A stretch of DNA of 25,029 nucleotides from a virus, in the IMG/VR virus record IMGVR_UViG_3300047319_001302, positions 1-25,029 of that record; one strand, given 5' to 3'. This document shows positions 9,823 through 20,234 of this stretch, piece by piece. Position numbers and translations under genes: made by a program. Each line of letters starts with the position of its first letter. The first letter of the stretch is position 1. The notes under the pieces were generated by a model that worked only from the letters and a program-made list of their open reading frames with translations, searched no databases and was not told where the DNA came from.

Positions 9823-10097
9823 CGCGACGGCACCCGACTGGTGTCAACGCAGAAGGCTGCCGATACGGAGGCTTGTTTCAGGACGTAGGCGAGCGCCGTG
9901 TTGCAGTTGCTCATCGAGGTAAAGGGTACCACCACCGCACCTCCACCCGTCACCGTCACCACCATCACCGATATGCTGACGACAAGGGCAACCAGTGACA
10001 CATTGGGGACTCCGGTGGTGGCGTTAGTGACGGTGGTGGTGACGGAAAGTGGTGGGGGATTGCGGAAAAAAATATTCGAGGGGTATACCGAAACCAC
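9819..10097 (-). CDS. Doubtful small ORF ending in a GTGA junction
   Basis: The 92-codon frame starts at GTG 10,097 and stops at 9,821-9,819, overlapping the next gene's GTG. The last 31 residues (MSNCNTALAYVLKQASVSA) look protein-like. The first 60 are T/V-rich because they run through a GTG/CAC repeat region, with one possible membrane stretch (SLVALVVSISVMVVTV). The junction suggests that at least the 3' end is translated. It may be a remnant gene reading into non-coding repeats. Confidence 0.35.
   Translation of the reverse strand: MVSVYPSNIFFRNPPPLSVTTTVTNATTGVPNVSLVALVVSISVMVVTVTGGGAVVVPFTSMSNCNTALAYVLKQASVSAAFCVDTSRVPSR
9929..10057. repeat. CAC/GTG-rich imperfect inverted repeat
   Basis: The left arm (about 9,929-9,968) is rich in CACC and CCGTCACCGTCACCACC. 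The right arm (about 10,014-10,057) mirrors it with GGTGGTGG and GTGACGGTGGTGGTGACGG. The arms could pair over about 35 bases with mismatches. It lies in the gene-poor gap between the terminase genes. Confidence 0.55.
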
Positions 10098-10163
10098 ATA
10101 TACGATATGGGGCCGTCAGCCACCGATATGGAACCAATCCTGTCAGGGGGTGGCCCGGCCCCG

Positions 10164-10298
10164 TCACCTGCCCCGCGGGTTGCTGCGGGGCCTGGCTGCC
10201 TTCACCGAGGGGGAGCGGTGTGTCGGCGGCTTGCTGGGCTGCGGCGCCTTGGTGCTGGTGGGCTTCTTCGGGGCCTCGACGATCGGGTTGGCTGCCAT
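10164..10298 (-). CDS. 44-residue basic proline-rich ORF, possibly frameshifted
   Basis: ATG 10,298 follows an AAAAGG Shine-Dalgarno at 8-base spacing. The peptide reads MAANPIVEAPKKPTSTKAPQ and stays basic and proline-rich to its TGA. Third codon positions are mostly G/C, as in real genes here. In another frame the same region encodes ADTPLPLGEGSQAPQQPAG and continues for more than 50 codons with plausible composition but no start codon. A single shift would join the two into a longer protein. Function unknown. Confidence 0.35.
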   Translation of the reverse strand: MAANPIVEAPKKPTSTKAPQPSKPPTHRSPSVKAARPRSNPRGR

Positions 10299-10383
10299 CG
10301 GGTTTGCCTTTTAGTCTACGCGCGCGAGGGAAGCGGCGTTTGAATGGGGGATCAGGTGGGGGATGGAAGGGTAATGTGCTGGC

Positions 10384-10399
10384 GAAACCCTAGGGTTTC
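10384..10399. repeat. Perfect 16-bp palindrome
   Basis: GAAACCCTAGGGTTTC reads the same on both strands and lies 40 bp beyond the small-terminase stop. It is followed by a partial echo (GCGGGTTTCG). It could be a protein-binding site or part of a packaging signal; it is not followed by a T tract. Confidence 0.75.
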
Positions 10400-10438
10400 T
10401 GCGGGTTTCGTGGCAGAGGCTGGCGGAGCACGTATCCT

Positions 10439-10945
10439 CTAGCCCTCGTCATCCGGCTTGGGTAGACGCTTCGGAGCGACCGGGACTAGCTGGATCATTG
10501 TAACCAGCGGCCGATCCGGGTCGCCCGTCAGCTCCTGGGTGACTTTGTCACCGAATTGGCGCGGCAGAAGCTTGGATAACAGCCACTTCCTGTTGTCACA
10601 CATCAGCCTGGCACGCTGCACCAGAGCGTTGTCGGGAATACCATTCACTGTGATGTCAGCGTCACCGATTTCGATTACCTCTTCAGCGACGCTTTCGAGG
10701 CCCATTTCCCTTGCGCGAGCGTATTGCGAACCGACAGTGTCGGGCCATTTCCTCACCCACTTCCGCACTGCCATTTCATCTGGCAGTGACGGATCACGGC
10801 AGATGGAGCGAAGGCTTTCACCTGCGGTAAGGCGATCGAGGATCAACTCGAGGACTTCGTCTGAATAGACGGGTTGCGATCCATTACGACCGCCGCGTTT
10901 AGCGGGAGCAGCCTTTTGCATGGCAGGATTAGCGGTGGTTTGCAC
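10439..10945 (-). CDS. terS: Terminase small subunit (Sf6-like)
   Basis: The small terminase recognises the packaging site and recruits the large subunit. The 168-residue reading starts at GTG 10,945; ATG 10,921 is an alternative giving 160. The N-terminal DNA-binding part is typical: YSDEVLELILDRLTAGESLR, then ICRDPSLPDEMAVRKWVRKW (helix-turn-helix about 45-70). The central helices (YARAREMGLESVAEEVIEIG, ALVQRARLMCDNRKWLLSKL) and the PRQFGDKV motif are hallmarks of the Sf6-type small terminase-like family. Length and location in front of terL agree. The AT-richer codon use differs from terL. Confidence 0.85.
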   Translation of the reverse strand: MQTTANPAMQKAAPAKRGGRNGSQPVYSDEVLELILDRLTAGESLRSICRDPSLPDEMAVRKWVRKWPDTVGSQYARAREMGLESVAEEVIEIGDADITVNGIPDNALVQRARLMCDNRKWLLSKLLPRQFGDKVTQELTGDPDRPLVTMIQLVPVAPKRLPKPDDEG

Positions 10946-10980
10946 AGCCTGGCACCATTGCTAGCGTTTCAACGCACAAG

Positions 10981-11326
10981 TCAAGCACAATCGGCTCCGT
11001 CAGTAGCGAGTCGATTGACGGCGTCGCAGAAGTCGATGTTTTCGGTGAGCATGAGATAAACCAGGGATCGATTTCGACGATGCTCTCGTTGCACCATTCT
11101 CCGCGAGTGACTCGGATACTGTTCCAGCCGCCGAGTTGGCGTTGCATTTCGGCCTTTGCGTGCTCGGCGATGTCCTGCGCGATGGGGTGTTTGGTATCTT
11201 TGCGGACAGCAACAGTTCGGTGAGGTAGCGGGCATTGAGTTCGAGGCTTCGGACGATGTTGCGCATGAGTTTGATTTCGAACAGATCGTTGTAGCGGCTG
11301 ACAAGCTTGGCTCCTCGATAGGTCAC
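10981..11326 (-). pseudogene. Gene broken by two frameshifts
   Basis: Three minus frames each carry one coding-like piece, in order. Piece 1, from GTG 11,326: (M)TYRGAKLVSRYNDLFEIK and on to NARYLTEL. Piece 2: DTKHPIAQDIAEHAKAEM, QLGGWNSIRVTRGEWC, IVEIDPWFI. Piece 3: YLMLTENIDFCDAVNRLATD, ending at TGA 10,981. Outside its piece each frame turns S/R/T-rich, as out-of-frame reading does. Each step is a shift equivalent to one lost base. Joined, they give a protein of about 115 residues, of unknown family. It fits exactly between the DUF6456 stop and the terS start. Either a decayed gene or two sequencing indels. Confidence 0.6.
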
Positions 11327-11330
11327 GTCG

Positions 11331-11855
11331 TCACATCCTGAAATGGTTTTGGAGAGTGCCAAGCGTGCTCAAGAGCACGCCTTTGACGACGTGCGGATGA
11401 ACGGCTTCGCCGCACCACGATCGTCGCAGTGCGAAGTCTCGCATGCTGCAATCGTTGCCGAGCACGTGCCAGGCGCAGGCTCCTGCGGGTGACGCTAGGC
11501 CGCCGAGGGCGTCGATGGCGCGGTCGAGGCTGGTCTTGGCCCAGAGGCTGCCCATGGGCTGTGCGAGCTTCACGCCGCCGCTGACGTGGGTCCGTGACGG
11601 GTCTGTGGCGTGGAGCGGGTCGCTAGCGGCGGCTCGGAAGAGCGTGTGAAACTGCTCGCCGGCGGCTCTCTGCGCTGCGGTGATGGAGCCGTTGCGTTCG
11701 AGCTTGGCCAGCAATCCTTCGGCTCTCCAGGGCACGCCGATGCGTCCGGCGGTGTCGGCGATTTGGCGGCGATCGCGGGTGATGCGGGAATGCTGTCGGC
11801 GCTCTGGTGACGGTTTGGCACTGGTGACGGTTTGGCTTGATGTCATATGTGTCAC
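11331..11855 (-). CDS. DUF6456-type protein
   Basis: 174 residues from GTG 11,855 (GTGA overlap). After a basic disordered leader (SPERRQHSRITRDRRQ), residues about 40-80 (LLAKLERNGSITAAQRAAGE) and 125-170 (CAWHVLGNDCSMRDFALRR, then VKGVLLSTLGTL) match the pattern of the DUF6456 helical domain common in alphaproteobacteria and their phages, including the SPAGACAWHVLG motif. The domain is often linked to transcription regulation, but its biochemical role is unknown. Stop TGA is 5 bp before the start of the broken gene. Confidence 0.75.
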   Translation of the reverse strand: MTHMTSSQTVTSAKPSPERRQHSRITRDRRQIADTAGRIGVPWRAEGLLAKLERNGSITAAQRAAGEQFHTLFRAAASDPLHATDPSRTHVSGGVKLAQPMGSLWAKTSLDRAIDALGGLASPAGACAWHVLGNDCSMRDFALRRSWCGEAVHPHVVKGVLLSTLGTLQNHFRM

Positions 11856-12214
11856 CGATCTGTGGTTTTGGTTGGCATTCGTTTGATGGCGTCGGCGGTG
11901 TGGCGGATTGTGCTATTGAGCAGGTTTGTGACGTAAGCGATATCTTCTGGGGTTGCGGGTGGCGTCGTTAGTTTCGGGCGGGCGGGTTTATTAAATTTCT
12001 TTCGGTAATGGGCTTCGGCGATATCGGCTCTGGCGGGGTCGAACCAGTTGCCTTCTGGGTCGCACGGTGAGGTTTTGACGTGTTGCTCGACATCGAGGAA
12101 GGCTCTGCGGAATCCGTAGGTATCGGCGTGCCATTGCCACTTCTCCGGCACGGAGAGAGCGGCGAAGCCGGCACGTTTCTGCTTATCGAGGGCTGGTTGG
12201 AAGAGGTAGGTCAC
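11852..12214 (-). CDS. 120-residue protein after the replication gene
   Basis: Starts at GTG 12,214 (GTGA overlap with the DUF1376-type gene). It begins (M)TYLFQPALDKQKRAG, with aromatic-rich VPEKWQWHADTYGFRRAF and PEGNWFDPARADIAEAHYRK, and ends basic (DAIKRMPTKTTDR). Its place directly after a replication-initiator-like gene is where many phages keep a helicase loader, but there is no P-loop, so I do not assign that role. Confidence 0.7.
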   Translation of the reverse strand: MTYLFQPALDKQKRAGFAALSVPEKWQWHADTYGFRRAFLDVEQHVKTSPCDPEGNWFDPARADIAEAHYRKKFNKPARPKLTTPPATPEDIAYVTNLLNSTIRHTADAIKRMPTKTTDR

Positions 12215-13077
12215 TTCAGTTGCTCGATTTCCTCGGGGGAGAGAGGCGGTGGGGGGCCTGGCGGTCGGTCTGGGATGTATTCGAAGTTTGGGTCGTGTCC
12301 GTTTGGTTTTGGTGACAGGTCTGGTTTGGCGTTGATGGCCCATCGCAGCCATCGGGGTCCGTCACGAATGGCATTCGGGTAGAGCAGGAACTTCTCGGCT
12401 TCCAGGTGAAGGTCAACGGGCGGCAGATTGTGCTTGGCGCGTAGCTCGGCGGCGGCACGGATCATTTCTTCACTGACATCGAATTTGTCACCTTGAGAGA
12501 GAGGGTCTTCGCCGGGCGCCTCGCGCGCGCGGCTCTCTCTCTCCTCTGAAGTACCTTTGATAAAAGGTACGTAAGAAGGAGTATCCGTTACCGTATGAGG
12601 TTCCGTTACCGTATGAGGTTCCGTTACTGCGCAAACGACATCCGTAACGTTTGTCGTATGTAACGCGTTACGTGGGTTGTTACGTCGCCACTCTGCAATG
12701 CGTTTCCGCTCTGCTTCTCTACGCTGTACGTTGGCGGCGTGGGATGCGTACGCACGCTTGACTTCGTCGCACATCACGGGATGGTAGAGGCGGCCGTCTG
12801 AGCAAAGAATGAAGCCGTGCAATGCGTTAGCACGGACCTTGGTCCAGCGGCGACCGGCGCCCGAGAAGCCGGCGAGCGCACGATCGTCGTTTGGCAGCGA
12901 GCCTCCCGGCGTCTGCTTCCAGGCGCGGCACCATAGCATAAAGGCGGCCCAACATTCTTCCGGGGTCGCAATCGCTATCAATTCACTTGCGAGCAAGCGA
13001 TCGACGTGAAGGCGAAAATCGCTGAGCATGCTGACGTCATAATCAGGGGGAACGAGGGGCTCCGGTCGATCGTCCAC
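12211..13077 (-). CDS. DUF1376-type phage replication protein
   Basis: The likely start is GTG 13,077, 5 bp after the upstream stop; the frame beyond is arginine/proline junk. The 288-residue protein has an N-terminal domain of about 120 residues (LVPPDYDVSMLSDFRLHV, TPEECWAAFMLWCRAWKQTP, GSLPNDDRALAGFSG) typical of DUF1376/YdaU proteins found in prophage replication modules. A basic coiled segment (RREAERKRIAEWRRNNP) and a low-complexity linker with the 6-residue repeat TEPHTV follow, then a helical C-terminus (MIRAAAELRAKHNLPP) and a proline tail. The linker is encoded by the GTTAC repeat cluster. Probably the initiator; inferred from context. Confidence 0.75.
   Translation of the reverse strand: MDDRPEPLVPPDYDVSMLSDFRLHVDRLLASELIAIATPEECWAAFMLWCRAWKQTPGGSLPNDDRALAGFSGAGRRWTKVRANALHGFILCSDGRLYHPVMCDEVKRAYASHAANVQRREAERKRIAEWRRNNPRNALHTTNVTDVVCAVTEPHTVTEPHTVTDTPSYVPFIKGTSEERESRAREAPGEDPLSQGDKFDVSEEMIRAAAELRAKHNLPPVDLHLEAEKFLLYPNAIRDGPRWLRWAINAKPDLSPKPNGHDPNFEYIPDRPPGPPPPLSPEEIEQLK
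12551..12570. repeat. 8-bp inverted repeat inside the replication gene
   Basis: GTACCTTT and AAAGGTAC are perfect arms around a GATA loop in a locally AT-rich stretch, 15 bp from the first GTTAC repeat. It could help strand opening or be a binding site. Confidence 0.6.
12585..12684. repeat. Cluster of seven GTTAC/GTAAC motifs (candidate origin iterons)
   Basis: CCGTTACCG lies at 12,585 and 12,603 and CCGTTACTG at 12,621, a strict 18-bp period with an identical TATGAGGTT filler. An inverted copy CCGTAACG is at 12,642. A perfect palindrome GTAACGCGTTAC is at 12,660-12,671, and another GTTACG at 12,679. All fall inside the linker-coding part of the replication gene, as lambda's iterons do in gene O. 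Origin activity is an inference. Confidence 0.6.
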
Positions 13078-13082
13078 GATGC

Positions 13083-13280
13083 CTATCCGACGCGTTGGAG
13101 TGAGAGGGCTTCGCGCCCGGCGAGCCAGCCGAGCATGAAGGTGCGGACCTCGCGCCAGCGCGAGCGGCGGGGGAATGTGGGGATGCCGAGTTGCTGCCGG
13201 ATGACGGCGGCGGCGATGCCGCCGCGGCGCCACAAGGTGATCGTCACATGGACGTCGGCGTAGAGTTGGGCTTGGCTCAC
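13083..13280 (-). CDS. Small basic DNA-binding-like protein
   Basis: 65 residues from GTG 13,280 (GTGA overlap). The sequence (M)SQAQLYADVHVTITLW, then GIAAAVIRQQLGIPTFPRR, looks like one short helical domain with a possible helix-turn-helix around residues 20-40, and an aromatic/basic end (WREVRTFMLGWLAG). No family recognised. Its TAG is 5 bp before the replication gene start. Confidence 0.6.
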   Translation of the reverse strand: MSQAQLYADVHVTITLWRRGGIAAAVIRQQLGIPTFPRRSRWREVRTFMLGWLAGREALSLQRVG

Positions 13281-13585
13281 GGTGCGGCCCCGGCTTTGCG
13301 CATGGCGGCGCGGAGTTCGGGCATGCGGGCTTGCCAGCGGGCGTAGAGGGAGGCGTCGTCGCTCGGCGGCCGGGCCGGCGGCACCGCATCCCAGGTGTCG
13401 TGAGCGTCGGGGGGGATATGGCGGGCGACGGCGGATTTGGCGCGGCCGAGGGCGGCGGCGATGCTTTTGAGGCCGCAGCCCGCGGCGAGCATGGTTCGCA
13501 GGGTGGCGATCTCGTCGGCGTCGAACGGCGATGACTGATAGCCCGAGCGTGTGTAGCGGCCGGTGTAGGTGGAGTGGTTGCTCAT
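13277..13585 (-). CDS. Small HTH protein
   Basis: 102 residues from ATG 13,585, overlapping the RusA stop as ATGA. After a Ser/Tyr-rich leader (YTGRYTRSGYQSSPFD), residues about 24-55 (EIATLRTMLAAGCGLKSIAA, LGRAKSAVARHI) form a resolvase-like helix-turn-helix with an A-A-A-L-G-R turn. A proline-rich linker and a helical end (LYARWQARMPELRAAMRK) follow. Likely a DNA-binding regulator of the early module; targets unknown. Confidence 0.65.
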   Translation of the reverse strand: MSNHSTYTGRYTRSGYQSSPFDADEIATLRTMLAAGCGLKSIAAALGRAKSAVARHIPPDAHDTWDAVPPARPPSDDASLYARWQARMPELRAAMRKAGAAP

Positions 13586-14052
13586 GCGGCGGCCTCCGCA
13601 GGCGCGAGCGGCAGTGCCCATGCGGCGACTGTCACCGGGCTGATTGTTACCACCAGTTTGGGCTGGAGCCCGTAGATTTTGCGGGCGCGGGCCTCGACAA
13701 TGAGGGCGTCGTCTCTAAACACCACACCGTTGAATGCGTCGGCCATTAACTTCCACAAATTATCCAGATCGGGCCTGCCGCTTGGCCGGATGAGCCCTAA
13801 GATGGCGAGATTGCGGCGCTTTCTGCTCCAGCTTGCCGGGATCGGCAGCTCCGCCAGCAGCTCGACCGACACCGGCTCGTCGAGCACGGCGGCGCCCATG
13901 TGCAGCATGGTGTTGGCGGCTTCGATGCGGAGCGCGGCCATTGCGTTGCGCTGCGGCGCGGGGACGAAGTGGGCGCCGGTGCGGGCGGCGATACGCATCC
14001 TCGCAAATGGAGTCGGAGGCCCCATAAGGACCACAGTCACGGGCTTAGACAT
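13582..14052 (-). CDS. rusA: RusA-family Holliday junction resolvase
   Basis: Cleaves four-way junctions during phage recombination and before packaging. The 156-residue protein has the RusA layout: beta-strand start (PVTVVLMGPPTPFARMR), a basic middle (IPASWSRKRR), and the catalytic block GRPDLDNLWKLMADAFNG followed by VVFRDDALIVE. The acidic residues Asp95, Asp97 and Asp115 and Lys101 sit where RusA's metal ligands and lysine are expected. Start ATG 14,052 overlaps the 3' end of the homing endonuclease gene by 8 bp. Confidence 0.88.
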   Translation of the reverse strand: MSKPVTVVLMGPPTPFARMRIAARTGAHFVPAPQRNAMAALRIEAANTMLHMGAAVLDEPVSVELLAELPIPASWSRKRRNLAILGLIRPSGRPDLDNLWKLMADAFNGVVFRDDALIVEARARKIYGLQPKLVVTISPVTVAAWALPLAPAEAAA

Positions 14053-14785
14053 TGCCGCGTTCCTCGCGCCACTTAGCCCAACGGCGCAACTGCCCTTCGG
14101 TCAGCTTCTTCCTGGTTTCGTCAGAAGGGGACCGTCCTCGCATAGCGTCGGCTCGCGCTTTAACGGCGGCGGGATCGGCTTTGCGGCCAGTCAGCGACCG
14201 CGAGATCTTTGCTCGCTGTTCTGGCGATATGATCCGCCCTTTAGCTATTCGCGATAGCGTTTCCCGATGTGTTTTCGACAAGGGCCTGCCGGTTTGAATG
14301 TCGATCAGGCGCTGAACATGTTCAGGCGACAGTTTGCGCCCGCGCTGCGGGCCAATAACGCGCTCGACGAACTCCGGGTCTTGCCAAAGTGCCTTGCGCG
14401 CCGCACGCATGCGCTCGCGTGTCTCGTCACTTACGTCATAAGCTCCGTCACCGCCGCCGGTTAAATTGTATCCGCCGTCGCGCACGTGTGTTTTCAGGGA
14501 GACGATTAACTCTTGCTCTAGGCGTGCTAGCGACGCTTTGTCATCAGCGGTTGCGATGACTTCGAAGCGGAAAGCCCTGACGCCATGTCGCGCTAGGGCT
14601 CGATGAATAAGATGCAGCGGGCTGTGCTTTGCGGTTGATATGTGGGAAGCCCATCGCGCGCTCGGATGCCTCGTTGTTACGCCGATATAAGCCGCGCCGG
14701 TCTTGATGTTGGCGATACGATAGACGTACCCAAACGAGGCGACGGGCTCGCCGAGGAGTGACACCGTGATCGGCTGCGCGGTCAT
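14045..14785 (-). CDS. GIY-YIG homing endonuclease with rusA-like leader
   Basis: The ATG at 14,785 overlaps a 22-residue ORF as ATGA; a GTG at 14,797 is possible. Residues 19-110 form a GIY-YIG nuclease domain: YVYRI then AAYIGVT (the GIY and YIG strands), Arg44, His48, a conserved Glu in LEQELIVSL, and YNLTGGGDG. Residues 115-240 are repeated DNA-binding modules of the NUMOD type (SDETRERMRAARKALW, LSPEHVQRLI, LSKTHRETLSRIAKG, SDETRKKLTEGQLRRW). The first 16 residues (TAQPITVSLLGEPVA) do not belong to the nuclease. They resemble the start of RusA (SKPVTVVLMGPPTP), the next gene, suggesting insertion at the rusA 5' end. Confidence 0.85.
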   Translation of the reverse strand: MTAQPITVSLLGEPVASFGYVYRIANIKTGAAYIGVTTRHPSARWASHISTAKHSPLHLIHRALARHGVRAFRFEVIATADDKASLARLEQELIVSLKTHVRDGGYNLTGGGDGAYDVSDETRERMRAARKALWQDPEFVERVIGPQRGRKLSPEHVQRLIDIQTGRPLSKTHRETLSRIAKGRIISPEQRAKISRSLTGRKADPAAVKARADAMRGRSPSDETRKKLTEGQLRRWAKWREERGNV

Positions 14786-14850
14786 GCGGTTGTCCACCGC
14801 TCATTCCAGTCTTTGAACGCGAACTGGCGCAACCCTTCCATGCCGGTCAC
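14782..14850 (-). CDS. 22-residue linker ORF
   Basis: GTG 14,850 overlaps the methyltransferase TGA (GTGA), and its own TGA overlaps the homing endonuclease ATG (ATGA). The peptide contains LRQFAFKDWNERWTTA. Perfect junctions on both ends suggest it is translated, either as a real tiny gene or as the remnant of a gene cut by the homing-endonuclease insertion. Confidence 0.4.
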   Translation of the reverse strand: MTGMEGLRQFAFKDWNERWTTA

Positions 14851-15782
14851 CGGACAAACCCAAATTGGCTGAACACGTTGCGGAAACGGTCACCGTGCGG
14901 GCCATAGTAGAAGAAGGCTTGGCCTTGAGTCGGCATGCACTCGTCGCCATCGGGGTCGACGAACTTCACCCGGCCGCGGGTGAAACACAGCAGGTCGGCG
15001 GCCGACTCGGCGTGGTGGAACCATGCACCATCGGTGTAATTGTGGGTGAGGACGATGGCCTGGGCGACGTTGCGCGCGGTGACTTCATCGACCAGCTTAG
15101 CGATGAACTGGCCGACCAGGGGGGCAGCGTAGGGTGGGTTAAGCCACACCCGGCCGTGCCAGGGTTGCACCAGGCCGTTGTCGGCGGCGGTGTAGTGGCT
15201 GATGGCGCGCACGATCTGCTGCGCCACCGGGTGGGTTGCCGGGTCGAGGTCGATCTCGCCCATCACCTCGCGGGCGGCCTCGATGTATTGCGCCGGGGTA
15301 AACCACTCGTTGTTGCCGGTGCCGAGCGCGCGGAAGTTTTCGTCCGCTTCCAGCCCCGCCTTGCGATAGGCGGCAACGATCTGCTGTGAGCGGTATTTAA
15401 CCTCGTCGGAGAGCTTCTTAGCCCACCGGGAGACGGTGTCTACGCGAATGCCGCTTAGCTCGGTGGCCTTGCTGGCAGACAAGATAGCAGGGTCTGCAAT
15501 CTTGTTTCGGCCGAGGCCGTGCCCGATGCTGACATTCTCATTCCACCAGCGGACGAAGTCCTGCTGTTCGTCAATCTTTAGCTCGATGGCCTGCTCCAGC
15601 AGCGGCCAATCTTTAACCCGAGCCGCATACTCGATGATGGCATCGGCCTTTGCCTGCTCGACCTTGGTTGCTTCCGGCGACACGGCCGGCAAGCCGCTGA
15701 GGTGCCGCAGCCTCAGCGCACCCACGGCCGCATAATACGAGTCGTGCAAATCGACGCTGGCGTCGTAGGTGCGCTCAGCCAT
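14847..15782 (-). CDS. Phage DNA N-6-adenine methyltransferase (Dam family)
   Basis: Methylates adenine in the phage DNA, commonly to evade host restriction. The 311-residue protein has an N-terminal region of about 95 residues, an HTH-like segment at about 100-127 (ASKATELSGIRVDTVSRWAK), and a Dam-type catalytic domain from residue 158: NEWFTPAQYIEAAREVMG, EIDLDPAT, and the catalytic NPPY at 215-218 (VWLNPPYAAP). The C-terminus has a VKFVDPDGD and QGQAFFYYG pattern typical of phage Dam proteins. No restriction enzyme is visible. ATG 15,782; its TGA overlaps the next ORF. Confidence 0.88.
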   Translation of the reverse strand: MAERTYDASVDLHDSYYAAVGALRLRHLSGLPAVSPEATKVEQAKADAIIEYAARVKDWPLLEQAIELKIDEQQDFVRWWNENVSIGHGLGRNKIADPAILSASKATELSGIRVDTVSRWAKKLSDEVKYRSQQIVAAYRKAGLEADENFRALGTGNNEWFTPAQYIEAAREVMGEIDLDPATHPVAQQIVRAISHYTAADNGLVQPWHGRVWLNPPYAAPLVGQFIAKLVDEVTARNVAQAIVLTHNYTDGAWFHHAESAADLLCFTRGRVKFVDPDGDECMPTQGQAFFYYGPHGDRFRNVFSQFGFVR

Positions 15783-15909
15783 CAGCGCGCCTCACGTAAG
15801 CCGCCGGCAGCGAGGCGCAGGGGGAAGCTGCGGCCGGAGGTTGGCCGCCGCCTCGCTGCCGGCGTACCGGCGGCGTGCCCCGACGCGCGCGGCCGGGTAG
15901 GGTACTCAC
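15775..15909 (-). CDS. 44-residue basic ORF over a hairpin
   Basis: GTG 15,909 overlaps the upstream TGA (GTGA) and the stop at 15,777-15,775 overlaps the methyltransferase start region by 8 bp. The peptide is R/P/G/A-rich (GRARRGTPPVRRQRGGG) because it crosses a 15-bp inverted repeat, so its protein status is uncertain. The junctions are the only support. Confidence 0.3.
   Translation of the reverse strand: MSTLPGRARRGTPPVRRQRGGGQPPAAASPCASLPAAYVRRADG
15803..15863. repeat. 15-bp perfect inverted repeat upstream of the methyltransferase
   Basis: GCCGGCAGCGAGGCG at 15,803-15,817 pairs with CGCCTCGCTGCCGGC at 15,849-15,863 around a 31-base loop that can also fold. On the minus-strand transcript it would form a strong stem 20 bp before the methyltransferase start. 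No U tract follows, so attenuation or mRNA protection is more likely than termination. Confidence 0.7.
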
Positions 15910-15998
15910 CGAGCCCACCGGCGGATGCTGTAGCCGCACAGCATGGCGGCCGGGATGGCGGCGGCGAGGTAGGCGACGGCGATCGCGGCGGCGGTCAT
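15906..15998 (-). CDS. 30-residue membrane peptide
   Basis: ATG 15,998 overlaps the upstream TGA (ATGA), and the stop overlaps the next GTG. The peptide is a single hydrophobic helix (AIAVAYLAAAIPAAMLCG) with a short basic end (SIRRWAR), so it would insert with a cytoplasmic basic tail. Function unknown. Confidence 0.5.
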   Translation of the reverse strand: MTAAAIAVAYLAAAIPAAMLCGYSIRRWAR

Positions 15999-16279
15999 GC
16001 GGCTTTACCCGCGGGAGGATTCCGGAAAACCTCCGGAGCGATCAGGCAGCCGTGTCGAACAAACAGCAATTGCCACTTGGCCGAGACGCCGCGCTGGCGC
16101 CACTTGTAGATGGCTTCATCGCGCGCCCCGAATTGCCGGCCTAGGCGTTCGATCTCGTCCCAAGCGGCAGCATCTACCTTGCTTCTCGCCCTGAGTTTTG
16201 CCCAGCCCGATTGAGTAGCCGCGCGATCCAATAGGCTATCCAGCCGGCGAGCCATTTCATCTTCCCCCCAGGCTTTCAT
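15995..16279 (-). CDS. Cro/YdaS-like small regulator
   Basis: 94 residues from ATG 16,279, overlapping the upstream TGA as ATGA. The C-terminal part (WDEIERLGRQFGARDEAI, YKWRQRGVSAKWQLLFV, then RHGCLIAPEVF) matches the pattern of phage Cro-like helix-turn-helix proteins, where the recognition helix is followed by W-R-x-R-G-V. The N-terminal 45 residues are a charged helix. It is probably a DNA-binding regulator of early genes, distinct from the Cro-like protein at 16,652. Confidence 0.65.
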   Translation of the reverse strand: MKAWGEDEMARRLDSLLDRAATQSGWAKLRARSKVDAAAWDEIERLGRQFGARDEAIYKWRQRGVSAKWQLLFVRHGCLIAPEVFRNPPAGKAA

Positions 16280-16533
16280 TTCTCGGCCGCCCATTCAGCG
16301 AGGCGGCGGCGGACGGCGCCGCGCTCGACTTCCTGAGCGTCCATTTCGGCGAGCAGCGCCACCGCCAACTCGCGGCGACGGGCTGAGGAGAAGCGTCGAT
16401 AGAGGCTGTGGCGCGCGGTATCGAGAGGGATGCCGAGCAGCCGGGCCAGCCTCTTCATCGTGTCGCGCGGGTAGACCGCGCGGATAGCGGCGGCCTCGTC
16501 GATCATCGGAGTCGCAATTCTGTTGCGGTGCAT
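16276..16533 (-). CDS. 85-residue HTH protein
   Basis: The ATG at 16,533 follows an AGGGGCG Shine-Dalgarno; the longer frame to 16,707 is rejected. The sequence MHRNRIATPMIDEAAAIRAV, then DTMKRLARLLGIPLDTARHS, contains a helix-turn-helix at about residues 25-45 followed by LYRRFSSARRRELAVALL and a basic helical tail. The same layout occurs in small regulators of rhizobial prophages. Target unknown. It is the second gene of the leftward operon. Confidence 0.7.
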   Translation of the reverse strand: MHRNRIATPMIDEAAAIRAVYPRDTMKRLARLLGIPLDTARHSLYRRFSSARRRELAVALLAEMDAQEVERGAVRRRLAEWAAEK

Positions 16534-16590
16534 TTGACCGCCCCTCTCGCCAATGTTCGGGATGCGAGAGGAGGCAAAGTGGCAGAGGTG

Positions 16591-16650
16591 CCGGCAGCCG
16601 CAGTTATGGGATGGCGTCCGGGGGTAACGGACGGTGGCTGCGGCTGCCGG
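16591..16650. repeat. 13-bp perfect inverted repeat between two regulators
   Basis: CCGGCAGCCGCAG (16,591-16,603) pairs with CTGCGGCTGCCGG (16,638-16,650) over a 34-base loop. It starts 1 bp after the Cro-like gene stop on the minus strand and ends 58 bp before the next start. It may act as a partial terminator or RNA stabiliser in the leftward transcript; no U tract is seen. Confidence 0.65.
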
Positions 16651-16651
16651 G

Positions 16652-16849
16652 TCATGCTGCGTCGGCTTGAGCCGCCCGCAGTACATCTTGCAGGCGACGG
16701 TAAACATCGAGTGTTGGTGAAGTACGACCGACTCGCCACCGATAAAACGTTGTGTGCGCTATGTTTGCGCGCTTACACAACTCGGCGACGGAGAGGCCAA
16801 CCTCATCTGCCAAACGCTCAACATCGGCGGGCGAAAGCAGGCAATCCAT
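16652..16849 (-). CDS. Cro-like regulator
   Basis: 65 residues: MDCLLSPADVERLADEVG, then LSVAELCKRANIAHTTFYRW (helix-turn-helix about 19-39) and a short helical end (VYRRLQDVLRAAQ). It is the first gene of the leftward operon and divergent from the CI-like repressor across about 90 bp containing three operators. This is the standard cro/cI arrangement. No Shine-Dalgarno precedes ATG 16,849, and the predicted -10 element ends 9 bp before it, so the mRNA may be leaderless. It presumably binds the same GTGCA operators. Confidence 0.75.
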   Translation of the reverse strand: MDCLLSPADVERLADEVGLSVAELCKRANIAHTTFYRWRVGRTSPTLDVYRRLQDVLRAAQADAA

Positions 16850-16857
16850 GAGGCAAA

Positions 16858-16886
16858 GTTTGCGTGCAATATTGCACGACGGTCAA
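16858..16886 (-). promoter_or_regulatory. Leftward early promoter (cro side)
   Basis: On the minus strand: -35 TTGACC (16,886-16,881), a 17-bp spacer that contains operator O1, then a weak -10 GCAAAC (16,863-16,858). Operator O2 abuts the upstream side of the -35. The expected transcript start is at or next to ATG 16,849. Confidence 0.55.
16864..16877. promoter_or_regulatory. Operator O1
   Basis: GTGCAATATTGCAC, a perfect 14-bp palindrome (16 bp with the flanking C and G), sits in the spacer of the leftward promoter. It is the best match among five sites of form GTGCA-N4-TGCAC. Confidence 0.8.
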
Positions 16887-16900
16887 GTGCATTCTTGCAG
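16887..16900. promoter_or_regulatory. Operator O2
   Basis: GTGCATTCTTGCAG has one mismatch in the last half-site base. It lies 23 bp from O1 (start to start) and abuts the -35 of the leftward promoter. Confidence 0.7.
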
Positions 16901-16921
16901 AATGACGCCGTCTATATGGCC

Positions 16922-16935
16922 GTGCAAATGTGCAC
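16922..16935. promoter_or_regulatory. Operator O3
   Basis: GTGCAAATGTGCAC has both half-sites perfect. It ends 2 bp before the repressor ATG and would overlap its transcription start, which suggests autorepression. Confidence 0.75.
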
Positions 16936-16937
16936 TT

Positions 16938-17207
16938 ATGGATGACGATCAGGAAGCCGCTCGGCGGTTTGTTAAAGACATCCTGCGGATAACCGGCTGG
17001 TCATCGAACCGGCTGGCAAAAGAAGCCCAGATATCGCACACGACGATATCGCGGTTTTTAAATAACCAGGATGTGACCCATACTTTGTCGGCTCGGACTT
17101 TATCGAAAGTCCGCAATGCCGCAGCCGCGTCGCAGGGGATCACCCTTGCTCAACTTGACGCAATATGGCTGGTAGCCCAGGGTCGCCCGACTACGCGTTC
17201 TGGATAA
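16938..17207 (+). CDS. CI-like repressor (short form)
   Basis: 89 residues from ATG 16,938 (MDDDQEAARRFVKDIL); longer frames upstream run through the operators. Residues about 12-45 are a helix-turn-helix of the XRE/HTH_3 type (SSNRLAKEAQISHTTISRFL), followed by a helical tail (ITLAQLDAIWLV). There is no C-terminal S24/LexA-type autocleavage domain, so RecA-triggered self-cleavage is not expected and induction must work another way. The gene is divergent from the Cro-like gene and followed by a strong terminator. No Shine-Dalgarno is visible; O3 occupies that position. Confidence 0.8.
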   Translation: MDDDQEAARRFVKDILRITGWSSNRLAKEAQISHTTISRFLNNQDVTHTLSARTLSKVRNAAAASQGITLAQLDAIWLVAQGRPTTRSG

Positions 17208-17239
17208 CGGACCCCTACTAAGCATCGCTCTCTCCATCA

Positions 17240-17279
17240 AACGCCGGACGGGCTGATCCCCGTCCGGCGTTCACATTTT
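17240..17279 (+). terminator. Rho-independent terminator after the repressor gene
   Basis: AACGCCGGACGGG (17,240-17,252) and CCCGTCCGGCGTT (17,259-17,271) form a perfect 13-bp stem with a CTGATC loop, followed by CACATTTT. It isolates repressor transcription from the rightward operon. Confidence 0.85.
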
Positions 17280-17336
17280 ACGGCTTAGCCAAGCGACTAG
17301 CGACGGCGCTTTCCTCCCTTCGACCGGGCGGCGGGT

Positions 17337-17350
17337 GTGCAATTTTGCAC
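17337..17350. promoter_or_regulatory. Operator O4
   Basis: GTGCAATTTTGCAC, both half-sites perfect, directly abuts the -35 TTGACG of the rightward promoter. Confidence 0.8.
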
Positions 17351-17379
17351 TTGACGTACGTGCAGGAATGCACATCATT
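17351..17379 (+). promoter_or_regulatory. Rightward early promoter
   Basis: -35 TTGACG (17,351-17,356), a 17-bp spacer that contains operator O5, then -10-like ATCATT (17,374-17,379). The layout matches the leftward promoter base for base in spacing. It would drive the ParB-to-integrase operon. Confidence 0.55.
17360..17373. promoter_or_regulatory. Operator O5
   Basis: GTGCAGGAATGCAC, both half-sites perfect, lies 23 bp after O4, the same distance as O1 to O2, inside the promoter spacer. Confidence 0.8.
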
Positions 17380-17436
17380 GCTCCCACGACCGGCACCAAC
17401 CCATCCCGGGCGTGTGCCCTCGTGAGGAGTGTTGTG

Positions 17437-18456
17437 ATGAGTGATACCAAGACGACGACCTGGGCGCCGGCAGTGCGGTGCGATCTGACGGCCGGGTCGC
17501 AGGCGTTCGCGCATGCGGTCGAGAAGTTCCGCGCCTGGGCGGCGGAACAGCAACGCCCGTCGCTGGATTTTCTTACGACGGGGTGGCACACGATCACCCC
17601 GGAGATTGCGGAGCAGTTGCTGATCTGCAACCGGCATAACCGCAAGCTGCGCTATACCGATGTGCTGCGTTATGCCACCGATATGTCGACGGGGCGGTGG
17701 CTCAAGACCGGCGAGCCGGTGATCATCACCGACGCCGGCGATCTCGAGGACGCCGGGCACCGCTGCATGGCGTGCCTGTTCTCGGGCTGCTCGTTTCCGA
17801 CGTTCGTGGTAACCGGCGTTCCGCACGACGACCAGTTGTTCAGCTTCATCGACAACGGTGTCTCCCGCACCGGGGACGATACGCTGCACTGTGCCGGGCT
17901 CAACGGGCTGAGCGGCAACATCCAGTCGGCGATCAAGAACTACGCCATCCGCTACGACGAGGGCTTGCTGCACTGGCACGGGCGTCCGTCGATTACGCCG
18001 ATCGCCAACCACCACATTCTCGACTATGCGCAGGCGCATCCGTCGCTGGCGGTGGTGGCGCACAAGGTGGCGGACGTCTACCAGGCGGCGATCCGGCGGC
18101 TCGACGACAAGGTTGCGGCAACCTTTGTCGGATGGAAGATCCACGAAGCCTACGGCACTGGCGTGTTTGACGAGTTCATGATGTCGCTGACGCAATCGGA
18201 TCTGCCCGCTGGGCATCCGGTTCTGGTGCTGCAGAAGCGTCTTGATGACCACGAGGCAGCCAAGGACGCGGCGCCTCGGTCGGCCAAAGCTAAGTTCAAG
18301 CTCAATGGCGTCAAGACCGTGGTGCTGGCGATGCGCGCCTTTCTGTATTGGCAGGAGGGTCGGATGAACGTGCGGCGGCTCGATCCCGGTATGGATGATC
18401 CGTTCCCCCGGATCGAGAAGCCGGAGGAAGGCGAACTCGCCGCCGCCGCACAATAA
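17437..18456 (+). CDS. ParB-fold (ParB/Srx-like) phage protein
   Basis: The ATG at 17,437 has an AGGAG Shine-Dalgarno 8 bp upstream; the frame back to 17,335 crosses the operators and is rejected. The 339-residue protein has a ParB-nuclease-like domain at about 50-150: TITPEIAEQLL, NRHNR (65-69), DVLRYATDMSTGRWLKTGEP, DAGHR (105-109) and SFIDNGVSRTGDD, a pattern I know from phage 'ParB-like' proteins whose box II has the GxxR signature. The C-terminal 180 residues are helical. The role could be gene regulation, DNA nicking or partition; not known. First gene of the rightward operon. Confidence 0.75.
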   Translation: MSDTKTTTWAPAVRCDLTAGSQAFAHAVEKFRAWAAEQQRPSLDFLTTGWHTITPEIAEQLLICNRHNRKLRYTDVLRYATDMSTGRWLKTGEPVIITDAGDLEDAGHRCMACLFSGCSFPTFVVTGVPHDDQLFSFIDNGVSRTGDDTLHCAGLNGLSGNIQSAIKNYAIRYDEGLLHWHGRPSITPIANHHILDYAQAHPSLAVVAHKVADVYQAAIRRLDDKVAATFVGWKIHEAYGTGVFDEFMMSLTQSDLPAGHPVLVLQKRLDDHEAAKDAAPRSAKAKFKLNGVKTVVLAMRAFLYWQEGRMNVRRLDPGMDDPFPRIEKPEEGELAAAAQ

Positions 18457-18464
18457 CTCGACAG

Positions 18465-18493
18465 GGGCGGGGGGAAACTCCCGCCCTTCTTTT
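18465..18493 (+). terminator. Hairpin with T-rich tail between the two ParB genes
   Basis: GGGCGGG (18,465-18,471) and CCCGCCC (18,480-18,486) flank GGAAACT, followed by TTCTTTT. It looks like an intrinsic terminator, but the downstream gene is 15 bp away in the same direction, so it probably attenuates the operon. Confidence 0.7.
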
Positions 18494-18507
18494 GCAGGAT
18501 CAGCCCG

Positions 18508-19545
18508 ATGCCATACCCCCATCACCCCGACACTGAACTCTTTCCGATGCTGTCGGAGGACGAACTAATCGAGCTTGCCGACGATATTGCTGCCAATGGA
18601 CTGTATGAGGCGATCAAGCTCGACCCTACCGGCGAGATTCTGGTTGACGGCCGCAACCGCGAGGCGGCCTGCGATATAGCCGGTGTCGAACCGCGCTATG
18701 TGCGCCTGCCGGATGGCACTGACATCTTCGCTTACATCGTCGCGACGAATCTGCGCCGCCGACATCTGTCCGCCGCCACGCGCCACGACGTTATTCGCGC
18801 AATAGCAGCCCGTAACCCAGATTTGAGTAATCGGCAAATAGCCAAGCTGGCCAACGTCAGTCATGTGACTGTAGGACAAGCAATCTCCGTTCAACTGGAC
18901 AGGGGCCTTCCAGTTGAACGCAAGACCATCGGTGCCGATGGAAAGTTAAGACCGGCATCGGGGAAGATCAGCGAAGTAACCAGAGCGGCGGTTATTGCAG
19001 ATTTAAAAAAATATCCCTGGGAGCAGCGCGACATCGCCGAGCGCCACGGCGTCTCGGTCGGCACCGTCGCCGGCATTAAACGCCGCCTCAAATCGGAGGG
19101 CGGTTTACCCAAGCCCACCACGCCGACCATCGCTGAGCAGCTGGCCAAACGCGCTGCCAATCTGCCGCGTTTCGACACGATGACCCGCGAAGAACGTGGC
19201 ATGGGCTCGCGCGAATACGGCGCCGAGCAGCACCCGGAGTACCCGCCGGGCTGGACCCGCGACCATGTCCACCGCGAGAAGTACGGACGCATCCAGATTT
19301 ACACGCCGGCGCAAATTGAGGAGCAGGCGCTCGCGAAACGCAACATTGCGAGCATCGGGGGATTAAAAATCTTCTTCGAAAACGCTCTCGATATCGAGGA
19401 CCTAGACAGACTCAGCGAAAATTCGCAGGAGTTTAACGACCTCCAGGTAGAAAAATTCGGCCCGCGAGTCCTCGATTTGATTGCCGGGTATCTCGCCCGC
19501 ATCAAAGCCCGCAAAGCGCCCAAGCTGACGATCGTAAAGCCGTGA
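18508..19545 (+). CDS. ParB-like DNA-binding protein
   Basis: 345 residues from ATG 18,508 (AGGA Shine-Dalgarno). The N-terminal ParB domain includes LADDIAANGLYEAIKLDP and GEILVDGRNREAACDIAG (42-59) and an LRRRHLSAATRHDVIRA helix pair. Residues 106-126 (LSNRQIAKLANVSHVTVGQA) and 172-194 (RDIAERHGVSVGTVAGIKRR) are two separate helix-turn-helix units. The final 120 residues are a distinct domain (FFENALDIEDLDRLSENSQE). ParB proteins use CTP to slide on DNA in partition, but related phage proteins act as regulators. No parA is present. Stop overlaps the next start (GTGA). Confidence 0.82.
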   Translation: MPYPHHPDTELFPMLSEDELIELADDIAANGLYEAIKLDPTGEILVDGRNREAACDIAGVEPRYVRLPDGTDIFAYIVATNLRRRHLSAATRHDVIRAIAARNPDLSNRQIAKLANVSHVTVGQAISVQLDRGLPVERKTIGADGKLRPASGKISEVTRAAVIADLKKYPWEQRDIAERHGVSVGTVAGIKRRLKSEGGLPKPTTPTIAEQLAKRAANLPRFDTMTREERGMGSREYGAEQHPEYPPGWTRDHVHREKYGRIQIYTPAQIEEQALAKRNIASIGGLKIFFENALDIEDLDRLSENSQEFNDLQVEKFGPRVLDLIAGYLARIKARKAPKLTIVKP

Positions 19546-19622
19546 TCCTCGACACTGTTGGCATAGTGATGGCGGTGCTCTGCGCCCTGGTGACAGTGGC
19601 GTGGATGTGGGTGCTGCTGTGA
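19542..19622 (+). CDS. 26-residue membrane peptide
   Basis: GTG 19,542 overlaps the ParB TGA (GTGA) and its own stop overlaps the next GTG. It is one hydrophobic helix, (M)ILDTVGIVMAVLCALVTVA, ending WMWVLL. Perfect junctions on both sides support translation. Function unknown. Confidence 0.55.
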   Translation: MILDTVGIVMAVLCALVTVAWMWVLL

Positions 19623-19831
19623 TACGTCCGTCCCTCGATCAGCTTCTCTACCGGGTGTTTTGCGAAGCGCAGGCCCTACTGCGCGAGGCGGAGCGGCTCG
19701 ATGCCGGCCGGCTGCCGCGGATTGCCGAGCGGCTGCTGCCGCTGAGCCGGGCGGTGGAGGCGGTCGAGGACCACGAACAGCGCGCCGCCGAGGCCGAGGA
19801 TCGCGCGGCGGCGTGTATGGGATGGCTGTAG
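19619..19831 (+). CDS. Small charged helical protein
   Basis: 70 residues from GTG 19,619 (GTGA overlap): (M)IRPSLDQLLYRVFCEAQAL then LREAERLDAGRLPRIAERLL and an E/A/D-rich tail ending CMGWL. The whole protein looks like a helical bundle or coiled coil. No family recognised. Confidence 0.65.
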   Translation: MIRPSLDQLLYRVFCEAQALLREAERLDAGRLPRIAERLLPLSRAVEAVEDHEQRAAEAEDRAAACMGWL

Positions 19832-19962
19832 TGTGGTGGCGTGACCGCTGGTGCCGCAAGCGGCTGACGTGGCCGCAGCGGGTTCTGTTTTACCGCCGCT
19901 GCGCGTGTCCCGCCGGGATCTGTTTGCCGCAGGGGCCGGGCGGCCCGGTCGAGCCGCGATGA
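19822..19962 (+). CDS. 46-residue basic W/C-rich protein
   Basis: ATG 19,822 is chosen; GTG 19,831 (TAGTG junction with the previous stop) would remove three residues. The peptide contains WWRDRWCRKRLTWPQ, then RRCACPAGICLPQGPGG with four cysteines, so it may bind metal or be membrane-attached. Its TGA overlaps the next ATG. Similar tiny basic proteins are common in rhizobial phage early operons. Confidence 0.55.
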   Translation: MAVVWWRDRWCRKRLTWPQRVLFYRRCACPAGICLPQGPGGPVEPR

Positions 19963-20234
19963 CTGGCGCGCTGGCCGCCGGGCTGCTGTGGCTCGTCGCC
20001 GACACGGTTGACCCGCAGGTGCTGTCGATCGAGTGGCCCGACGGCAGCTCGGAGACGGTGGCGGCCACCAACGCCGGCATCTGCGCAATTGCGGTGAGCG
20101 CGCTCCTGAGCGGGCTATGGCGCCCGGTGGGGCGGCCCGAGCCGCCGCTGAGCGCGAGCTGCAGCACCGGCAATGCGTTTGCCGCCGATGCGTTTTGTAT
20201 CAAAGGACACGACCGCGACTGCGGGAGGCGATGA
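19959..20234 (+). CDS. Small protein with hydrophobic segments
   Basis: 91 residues from ATG 19,959 (ATGA). Two hydrophobic parts, GALAAGLLWLVADTV (2-17) and AGICAIAVSALLSGLW (55-70), flank a polar domain (LSIEWPDGSSETVAATN). The tail has cysteines and charges (CIKGHDRDCGRR). Possibly a small membrane protein. Unknown family. Confidence 0.6.
   Translation: MTGALAAGLLWLVADTVDPQVLSIEWPDGSSETVAATNAGICAIAVSALLSGLWRPVGRPEPPLSASCSTGNAFAADAFCIKGHDRDCGRR

Follow-up and report, generated by a model that had tools for sequence, protein, structure and literature searches.

The replication origin of the lambdoid phages lies in the middle of gene O and is made up of iterons and an AT-rich region, and in Stx phages two extra iterons add 13 residues to the O protein (PMC7466680). 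In plasmid pSK41 the origin is located in the middle of rep: the N-terminal domain of Rep binds four Rep boxes, the origin-encoded middle of the protein is a linker and the C-terminal domain is DnaD-like (PMC5703833). For Francisella phage KIRK a putative origin with repeats was proposed within fhv_0043, and the accessible part of that paper does not mention DUF1376 (PMC7924643). Phage-inducible islands form a contrast, as the origin there follows the initiator gene on its 3' side (PMC6092414). The DUF1376 domain has been named without a function (PMC5795418), and no report tying DUF1376 genes to an internal origin was found in the literature searched, which was accessible in part and mostly did not include subscription journals. 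The other statements on published systems likewise refer to the accessible parts of the cited papers.

The DNA analysed here, referred to as the window, is a whole virus record of IMG/VR with a length of 25,029 bases, which may itself be a fragment. A 97-bp block in its putative DUF1376 replication initiator gene is interpreted, on sequence and model grounds and with a probability of roughly 0.85, as the candidate iteron array of a phage origin that lies within the initiator gene and encodes mostly the interdomain linker. As in lambda, repeated candidate initiator sites are found within the initiator gene, mostly at the predicted linker between its domains, which supports the lambda-like design proposed in a preliminary description of the sequence. 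Unlike lambda, the initiator is a DUF1376 protein, the sites share the 5-bp core GTWAC, occur in both orientations and include a central palindrome, and no P-like gene was recognised among the 20 ORFs of the window that were scanned. A Pfam model of the lambda O family exists, and it matched none of 62 aligned family members at E 0.01.

The locus is like that of pSK41, a RepA_N plasmid, in that origin-type repeats are central in the initiator gene and encode a linker, with binding by the initiator a proposal in the present case. It differs from pSK41 in its DUF1376 N-terminal domain, in its sites and in that the named phages with relatives are mostly of Pseudomonas and Burkholderia, in contrast to staphylococcal plasmids. 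KIRK is a parallel in that repeats of a putative origin were likewise placed within a replication gene of a phage, but fhv_0043 is described with Phg_2220_C, which was matched by one of the 62 members here, and the KIRK origin is a prediction for a single phage (PMC7924643, in the part accessible). What would be new is the lambda/pSK41 principle in a different initiator family, DUF1376; as this type of arrangement is known from both systems, the surprise is limited.

Gene content of the window

From its gene content, the window reads as a temperate tailed phage. Genes were recognised for the portal protein, the large terminase, RecE-like and RecT-like proteins and an integrase, as well as for the small terminase and RusA, for a GIY-YIG endonuclease and for a Dam-like protein. 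The homing-endonuclease-like GIY-YIG gene carries a NUMOD3 motif and is located at 14045-14797, between the RusA and Dam-like genes. A DNA-binding protein with a weak ParB-like match (phrog_1033, 1.8e-6) is encoded at 18508-19545, and the record gave no match to PF02195. The 20 ORFs scanned yielded no recognisable helicase or loader gene.

The DUF1376 protein as a single query found no relatives in viral_contigs or genome_contigs, nor did its Dam-like neighbour in viral_contigs, and nothing was found when positions 10000-20000 were compared with phages at the DNA level. A GC-skew turning point had been anticipated near 12.6 kb. No sign change occurs there; the change of sign falls at about 9.5-10 kb, and the skew, judged from the ORF map, follows the coding strand. 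GC skew was rejected as origin evidence.

A cluster of GTWAC sites within the initiator gene

The putative initiator gene occupies 12211..13077 on the minus strand and encodes 288 amino acids when read from the GTG at 13077, a start codon that is uncertain. Within it, seven GTTAC/GTAAC sites in both orientations span 97 bp (12587..12683), confirming the seven motifs in 100 bp noticed before, and are regarded as putative initiator-binding sites. GTTAC is present on the plus strand at 12587, 12605 and 12623, which are the three sites reported on an 18-bp period, followed by GTAAC at 12644 and 12660 and GTTAC at 12667 and 12679. The first three sites belong to three copies of the unit GAGTATCCGTTACCGTAT at 18-bp spacing (12579..12632, plus strand); the direct repeat 12579-12596/12597-12614 was detected computationally, and the third copy, which differs after GTTAC, was read from the sequence. 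The inverted GTAAC at 12644 and a perfect 12-bp palindrome, GTAACGCGTTAC at 12660..12671, were also found as described, the latter forming a head-to-head pair of GTWAC sites.

Ranked by improbability, the GTWAC cluster comes first of all 5-mer clusters in the window, and none of 100 windows simulated under an order-1 Markov null reached the observed minimum for such clusters. The second least expected cluster, nearly as improbable, consists of eight CAGCA/TGCTG 5-mers in less than 100 bp (2769-2861) within the portal gene (2640-4958) and is perhaps a coding repeat. GTTAC is not enriched window-wide, with 18 occurrences against 14.86 expected and 25 of 100 shuffles reaching 18; the special feature of this motif in the window is its local cluster only.

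The motif cluster is independent of the protein sequence. In 2000 synonymous shuffles of the initiator gene, seven GTWAC in 100 bp were never reached. The codon phases of the seven sites are, in gene order, 1,1,2,0,0,0,0; the 18-bp-spaced sites are in phase 0 and are translated as Val-Thr. Four sites fall in phase 0 and the others in phase 1 (two) or phase 2 (one), so a single peptide repeat cannot account for them.

An AT-rich hairpin, GTACCTTT-GATA-AAAGGTAC at 12551..12570, adjoins the array and could act as an unwinding element. It is present in the predicted single-strand DNA fold of 12541-12690 (z -2.95, none of 200 shuffles being as stable), and the most AT-rich 24 bp of the initiator gene, starting at gene nt 494, also adjoin the array. 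The flanking hairpin of the preliminary description is therefore present and folds, but its AT content is unexceptional: 80 of 100 synonymous shuffles were equally AT-rich, and AT-richness was rejected as origin evidence. A pure purine run of 15 nt on the coding strand (12533..12547) is perhaps the counterpart of purine-rich tracts in relatives; the purine maximum of the window gene is at nt 346, not at this run.

The DUF1376 protein

The N-terminus of the window protein matches DUF1376 (PF07120) with 40.5 bits against a Pfam cut-off of 30.1 (E 3.6e-10), and the gene matches phrog_22470, 'replication protein', at 8.7e-31. Both models are matched by all 62 aligned family members (limits 0.01 and 0.001). 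In an AlphaFold2 model built with the alignment of these 62 proteins (A2), block means of pLDDT were 85-98 for residues 1-135 and 40-59 for residues 141-200.

A layout of domain, linker and domain is predicted for the initiator. The N-terminal domain, residues 1-135 (12673..13077, minus strand), is predicted to be winged-helix-like and DNA-binding, residues 141-200 probably form a disordered linker in the model, and a C-terminal helical region, residues 203-250 (12328..12471, minus strand), is presumed to recruit a helicase or its loader. The GTWAC sites fall about 395-491 nt into the gene and encode residues 132-164. The earlier statement that they encode only a linker of a DUF1376-type protein thus holds for the protein family and for most of the block, but the end of the long helix of the N-domain is encoded by them as well.

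With the model as query, Foldseek gave no match at E <= 0.001; the top two matches, both weak, were the plasmid initiator chains 4pta (E 0.47) and 5kbj (E 0.50), which we take to be RepA_N proteins. VIA gave Z 3.7-4.5 for plasmid initiator chains, tied with other winged-helix chains, and no match at Z >= 5 among 335 chains, a weak match excluding nothing. From these matches, a winged helix is considered the likely fold of the modelled N-domain, and a relationship of DUF1376 to RepA_N is taken only as a lead. The RepA_N Pfam model had no match among the 62 members. Five of the 62 matched the 'O-like' phrog_678, the window protein not being one of them, two matched a 'DnaD-like helicase loader' PHROG, and some members matched 'replication initiation' PHROGs.

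The next gene is shown in 13 annotated homologue regions; in four of them (L003, L004, L005 and L012) a helicase or loader gene comes directly behind the initiator gene, and in others the next gene is RusA or unnamed. In L005 (phage Solano, 2977-3999) the DUF1376 frame is open throughout, yet the record annotates only a short part of it at the 3' end and, over the frame, an ORF on the opposite strand.

Repeats in related initiator genes

Relatives were found by tblastn in 35 phage and six plasmid records, from which 17 regions were taken; the named phages were mostly of Pseudomonas and Burkholderia. An alignment query (A1) against viral_contigs yielded at least 600 stretches and at least 583 relatives, of which the best 80 were kept, so the sample represents the nearer relatives and is not random. 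Together, 80 viral loci, 16 phage or plasmid regions and the window provided 97 genes, 96 of them complete and one (L098) incomplete; L011, truncated by the end of its record, is outside these counts and was a row of A1. The complete genes were reduced to 75 non-redundant representatives by shared 12-mers. In the viral loci, numbering within the gene begins with the tblastn match rather than with a known start codon.

For each gene, 200 synonymous codon shuffles served as the null for pairs of 6-mer repeats within 150 bp. Direct repeats were above the synonymous null (p<=0.05) in 62 of the 75 sampled genes and inverted repeats in 40, against 4 and 7 of 72 neighbouring open frames (100 shuffles), these controls being one mechanically picked frame of 600-1500 nt in 72 of the 75 loci that may not be a real gene. 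Repeat maxima in significant genes were located, from the 5th to the 95th percentile, at nt 385-608 for direct and nt 344-763 for inverted repeats, the direct ones mostly just beyond the N-domain. After masking of tandem hexamers, 49 genes remained significant for direct repeats, 38 for inverted repeats and 56 for the two summed; L022 and L037, which belong to the same clade as the window, are among the 19 genes with no excess. A first automatic motif finder often picked up tandem hexamers or motifs due to chance, and recovered only four one-strand sites in the window; owing to this unreliability, the counts rest on the tests of repeats against recoding and on direct pattern counts. At the level of sequence, these comparisons establish that most sampled DUF1376 initiator genes have lineage-specific clusters of repeats at one shared position.

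Tandem hexamers of at least three units (GGACAG, GGGACA, ACCGGA and others) were present in 55 of the 75 genes, and 51 of the 55 runs start at nt 427-649, behind the motif block. They are often purine-rich in the relatives whose sequences were read, and the window gene has none. By analogy, an unwinding or single-strand-binding element is a possible role for them. The copy number of a GQGEGEG-type hexamer tandem differs among the near-identical L004, L005, L006, L070, L075, L076, L077 and L089; with such variation between nearly identical initiator genes, the hexamer repeat appears to expand and contract quickly.

Motif conservation with different linker peptides

In nine relatives (L023, L024, L026, L027, L031, L032, L034, L055 and L059) the linker contains 4-9 GTNAC sites, almost all of the form CGTNACG. 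Their spacing is mostly 12 bp with jumps of 11, 22, 23 or 24 bp, the first three of which alter the reading frame. The sites are mostly in codon phase 1, as are two of the seven in the window, and read Arg-Asn/His/Asp. The Arg codon is CGT in 54 of 66 cases within the CGTNACG blocks versus 25 of 290 outside. Pairs of the form CGTNACG-N5-CGTNACG, 12 bp apart, occurred in 9 of 30 whole records, a hand-chosen set including the nine relatives and the window. By hand comparison with the locus ranges, all listed pair places are inside the initiator gene, and the backward pattern, used as a control, was absent from the 30 records. The window has no match to the pair pattern because its spacing differs.

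TEPHTV is missing from the 60-residue linker stretch of each of these nine relatives. They keep the motif and lack the peptide, the reverse of the combination (peptide kept, motif lost) that had been named beforehand as evidence against an origin. The homologue check proposed with it, GTTAC spacing kept with a variable protein, came out mostly in favour of an origin: the motif occurs with other peptides, but the 18-bp spacing is not shared.

The palindrome adds to this comparison. GAAACGCGTTTC, which has the same geometry as GTAACGCGTTAC of the window, was found in all three codon phases across seven other genes (L020, L033, L035, L045, L047, L068 and L073). There are 10 copies of GNAACGCGTTNC in 8 of the 75 sampled genes, the window copy included, and these too cover all three codon phases; 442,987 bp of flanking sequence contained none.

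A protein-level origin of the repeats can be weighed against these results. TEPHTV-like repeats could have arisen by slippage in an unconstrained linker, with the DNA motif as a by-product, and both the modelled disorder of the linker and the slippage-like tandem hexamers in 55 of the 75 genes, variable in copy number among near-identical phages, would fit. Slippage of this kind does not account for inverted GTWAC copies in three codon phases or for relatives that retain the motif with different peptides, and the recoding null, the CGTNACG relatives and the palindrome kept in all phases already largely refute this explanation, which we regard as highly improbable. As had been suggested from the window alone, there is clear evidence in the sequences for selection on the DNA rather than on the peptide, with none of the 2000 recodings reaching the cluster and the motif kept with other peptides in nine relatives.

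Motif classes and the N-domain tree

The expectation that the motif itself would be conserved in homologues failed for the closest kin of the window among the matches listed, L020 (68% identity over 109 columns) and L021, which have GAAACGC sites and the motif CCTACAAGG, respectively, not GTWAC. Other groups have TGTCCC, TGTSAC, TCCGNNGGAA, CTNAAGGA or GCATTGCC in the same place. A motif class was assigned in 46 of the 75 sampled genes and 29 remained without one, an assignment that is descriptive as the classes were named after viewing the sequences. On a tree of the N-domain of the 46 labelled genes, with the linker excluded, motif class needs 16 changes, compared with a mean of 30.7 and a minimum of 26 in 500 shuffles, a signal that shared descent alone could produce. 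What the tree adds is that the motif persists across divergences over which the linker peptide is lost. A comparison of seven GTNAC genes with seven GAAACGC genes for specificity residues gave five differing columns and is confounded by descent.

The sites might instead be bound by a different protein of the phage, for example a repressor or a ParB-like partition protein, and merely be located in this gene. A palindrome with repeats does resemble a centromere or an operator, the window encodes the weakly ParB-like protein at 18508-19545, and in phage phi297 a ParA-like gene is found close to the homologue. These points are outweighed by the tracking of motif class with the DUF1376 N-domain tree and by the position of the blocks at one point of the DUF1376 gene family; furthermore, ParB_N (PF02195) exceeded its cut-off in none of the 30 records including the window, some of which may be fragments, and two gave weak matches. 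Service to another protein is thus rated very unlikely.

Proposed function of the array

If the block is a phage origin, the N-domain would bind the GTWAC sites, and the head-to-head palindrome would probably nucleate this binding. The resulting nucleoprotein complex may open the adjacent AT-rich hairpin or purine stretch, and the C-terminal part of the initiator would bring in a helicase or its loader. An autoregulatory operator, bound by the initiator to control its own expression and not replication, would fit all of the sequence evidence, since it requires specific binding alone. An operator would be oddly placed about 395-491 nt into the gene instead of at its start, and the layout matches the origins of lambda and pSK41 (PMC7466680, PMC5703833, in the parts accessible), so that a purely regulatory role is considered unlikely. 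With the array read as an origin, the preliminary description was right on the sequence and probably right on its meaning.

Beyond the window, there is about an even chance that DUF1376 genes represent a large undescribed class of self-contained replicons, with an origin in the linker, fast-evolving motifs, a palindrome core in several lineages and a tandem hexamer in most sampled members. On this broader reading, the motif family would comprise GTTAC, GTTTC, GTCAC, GTCCC, GTCTC and others, many of them one base apart.

The results suggest a likely function, that of an origin-binding replication initiator, for a domain still labelled as of 'unknown function'. Origins would become predictable from sequence alone in many temperate phages, and the sampled genes would offer a ready set of initiator-motif pairs for studying how initiator specificity changes. 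If the DUF1376 genes are indeed self-contained replicons, the co-evolution of initiator and origin specificity would be naturally documented in this family.
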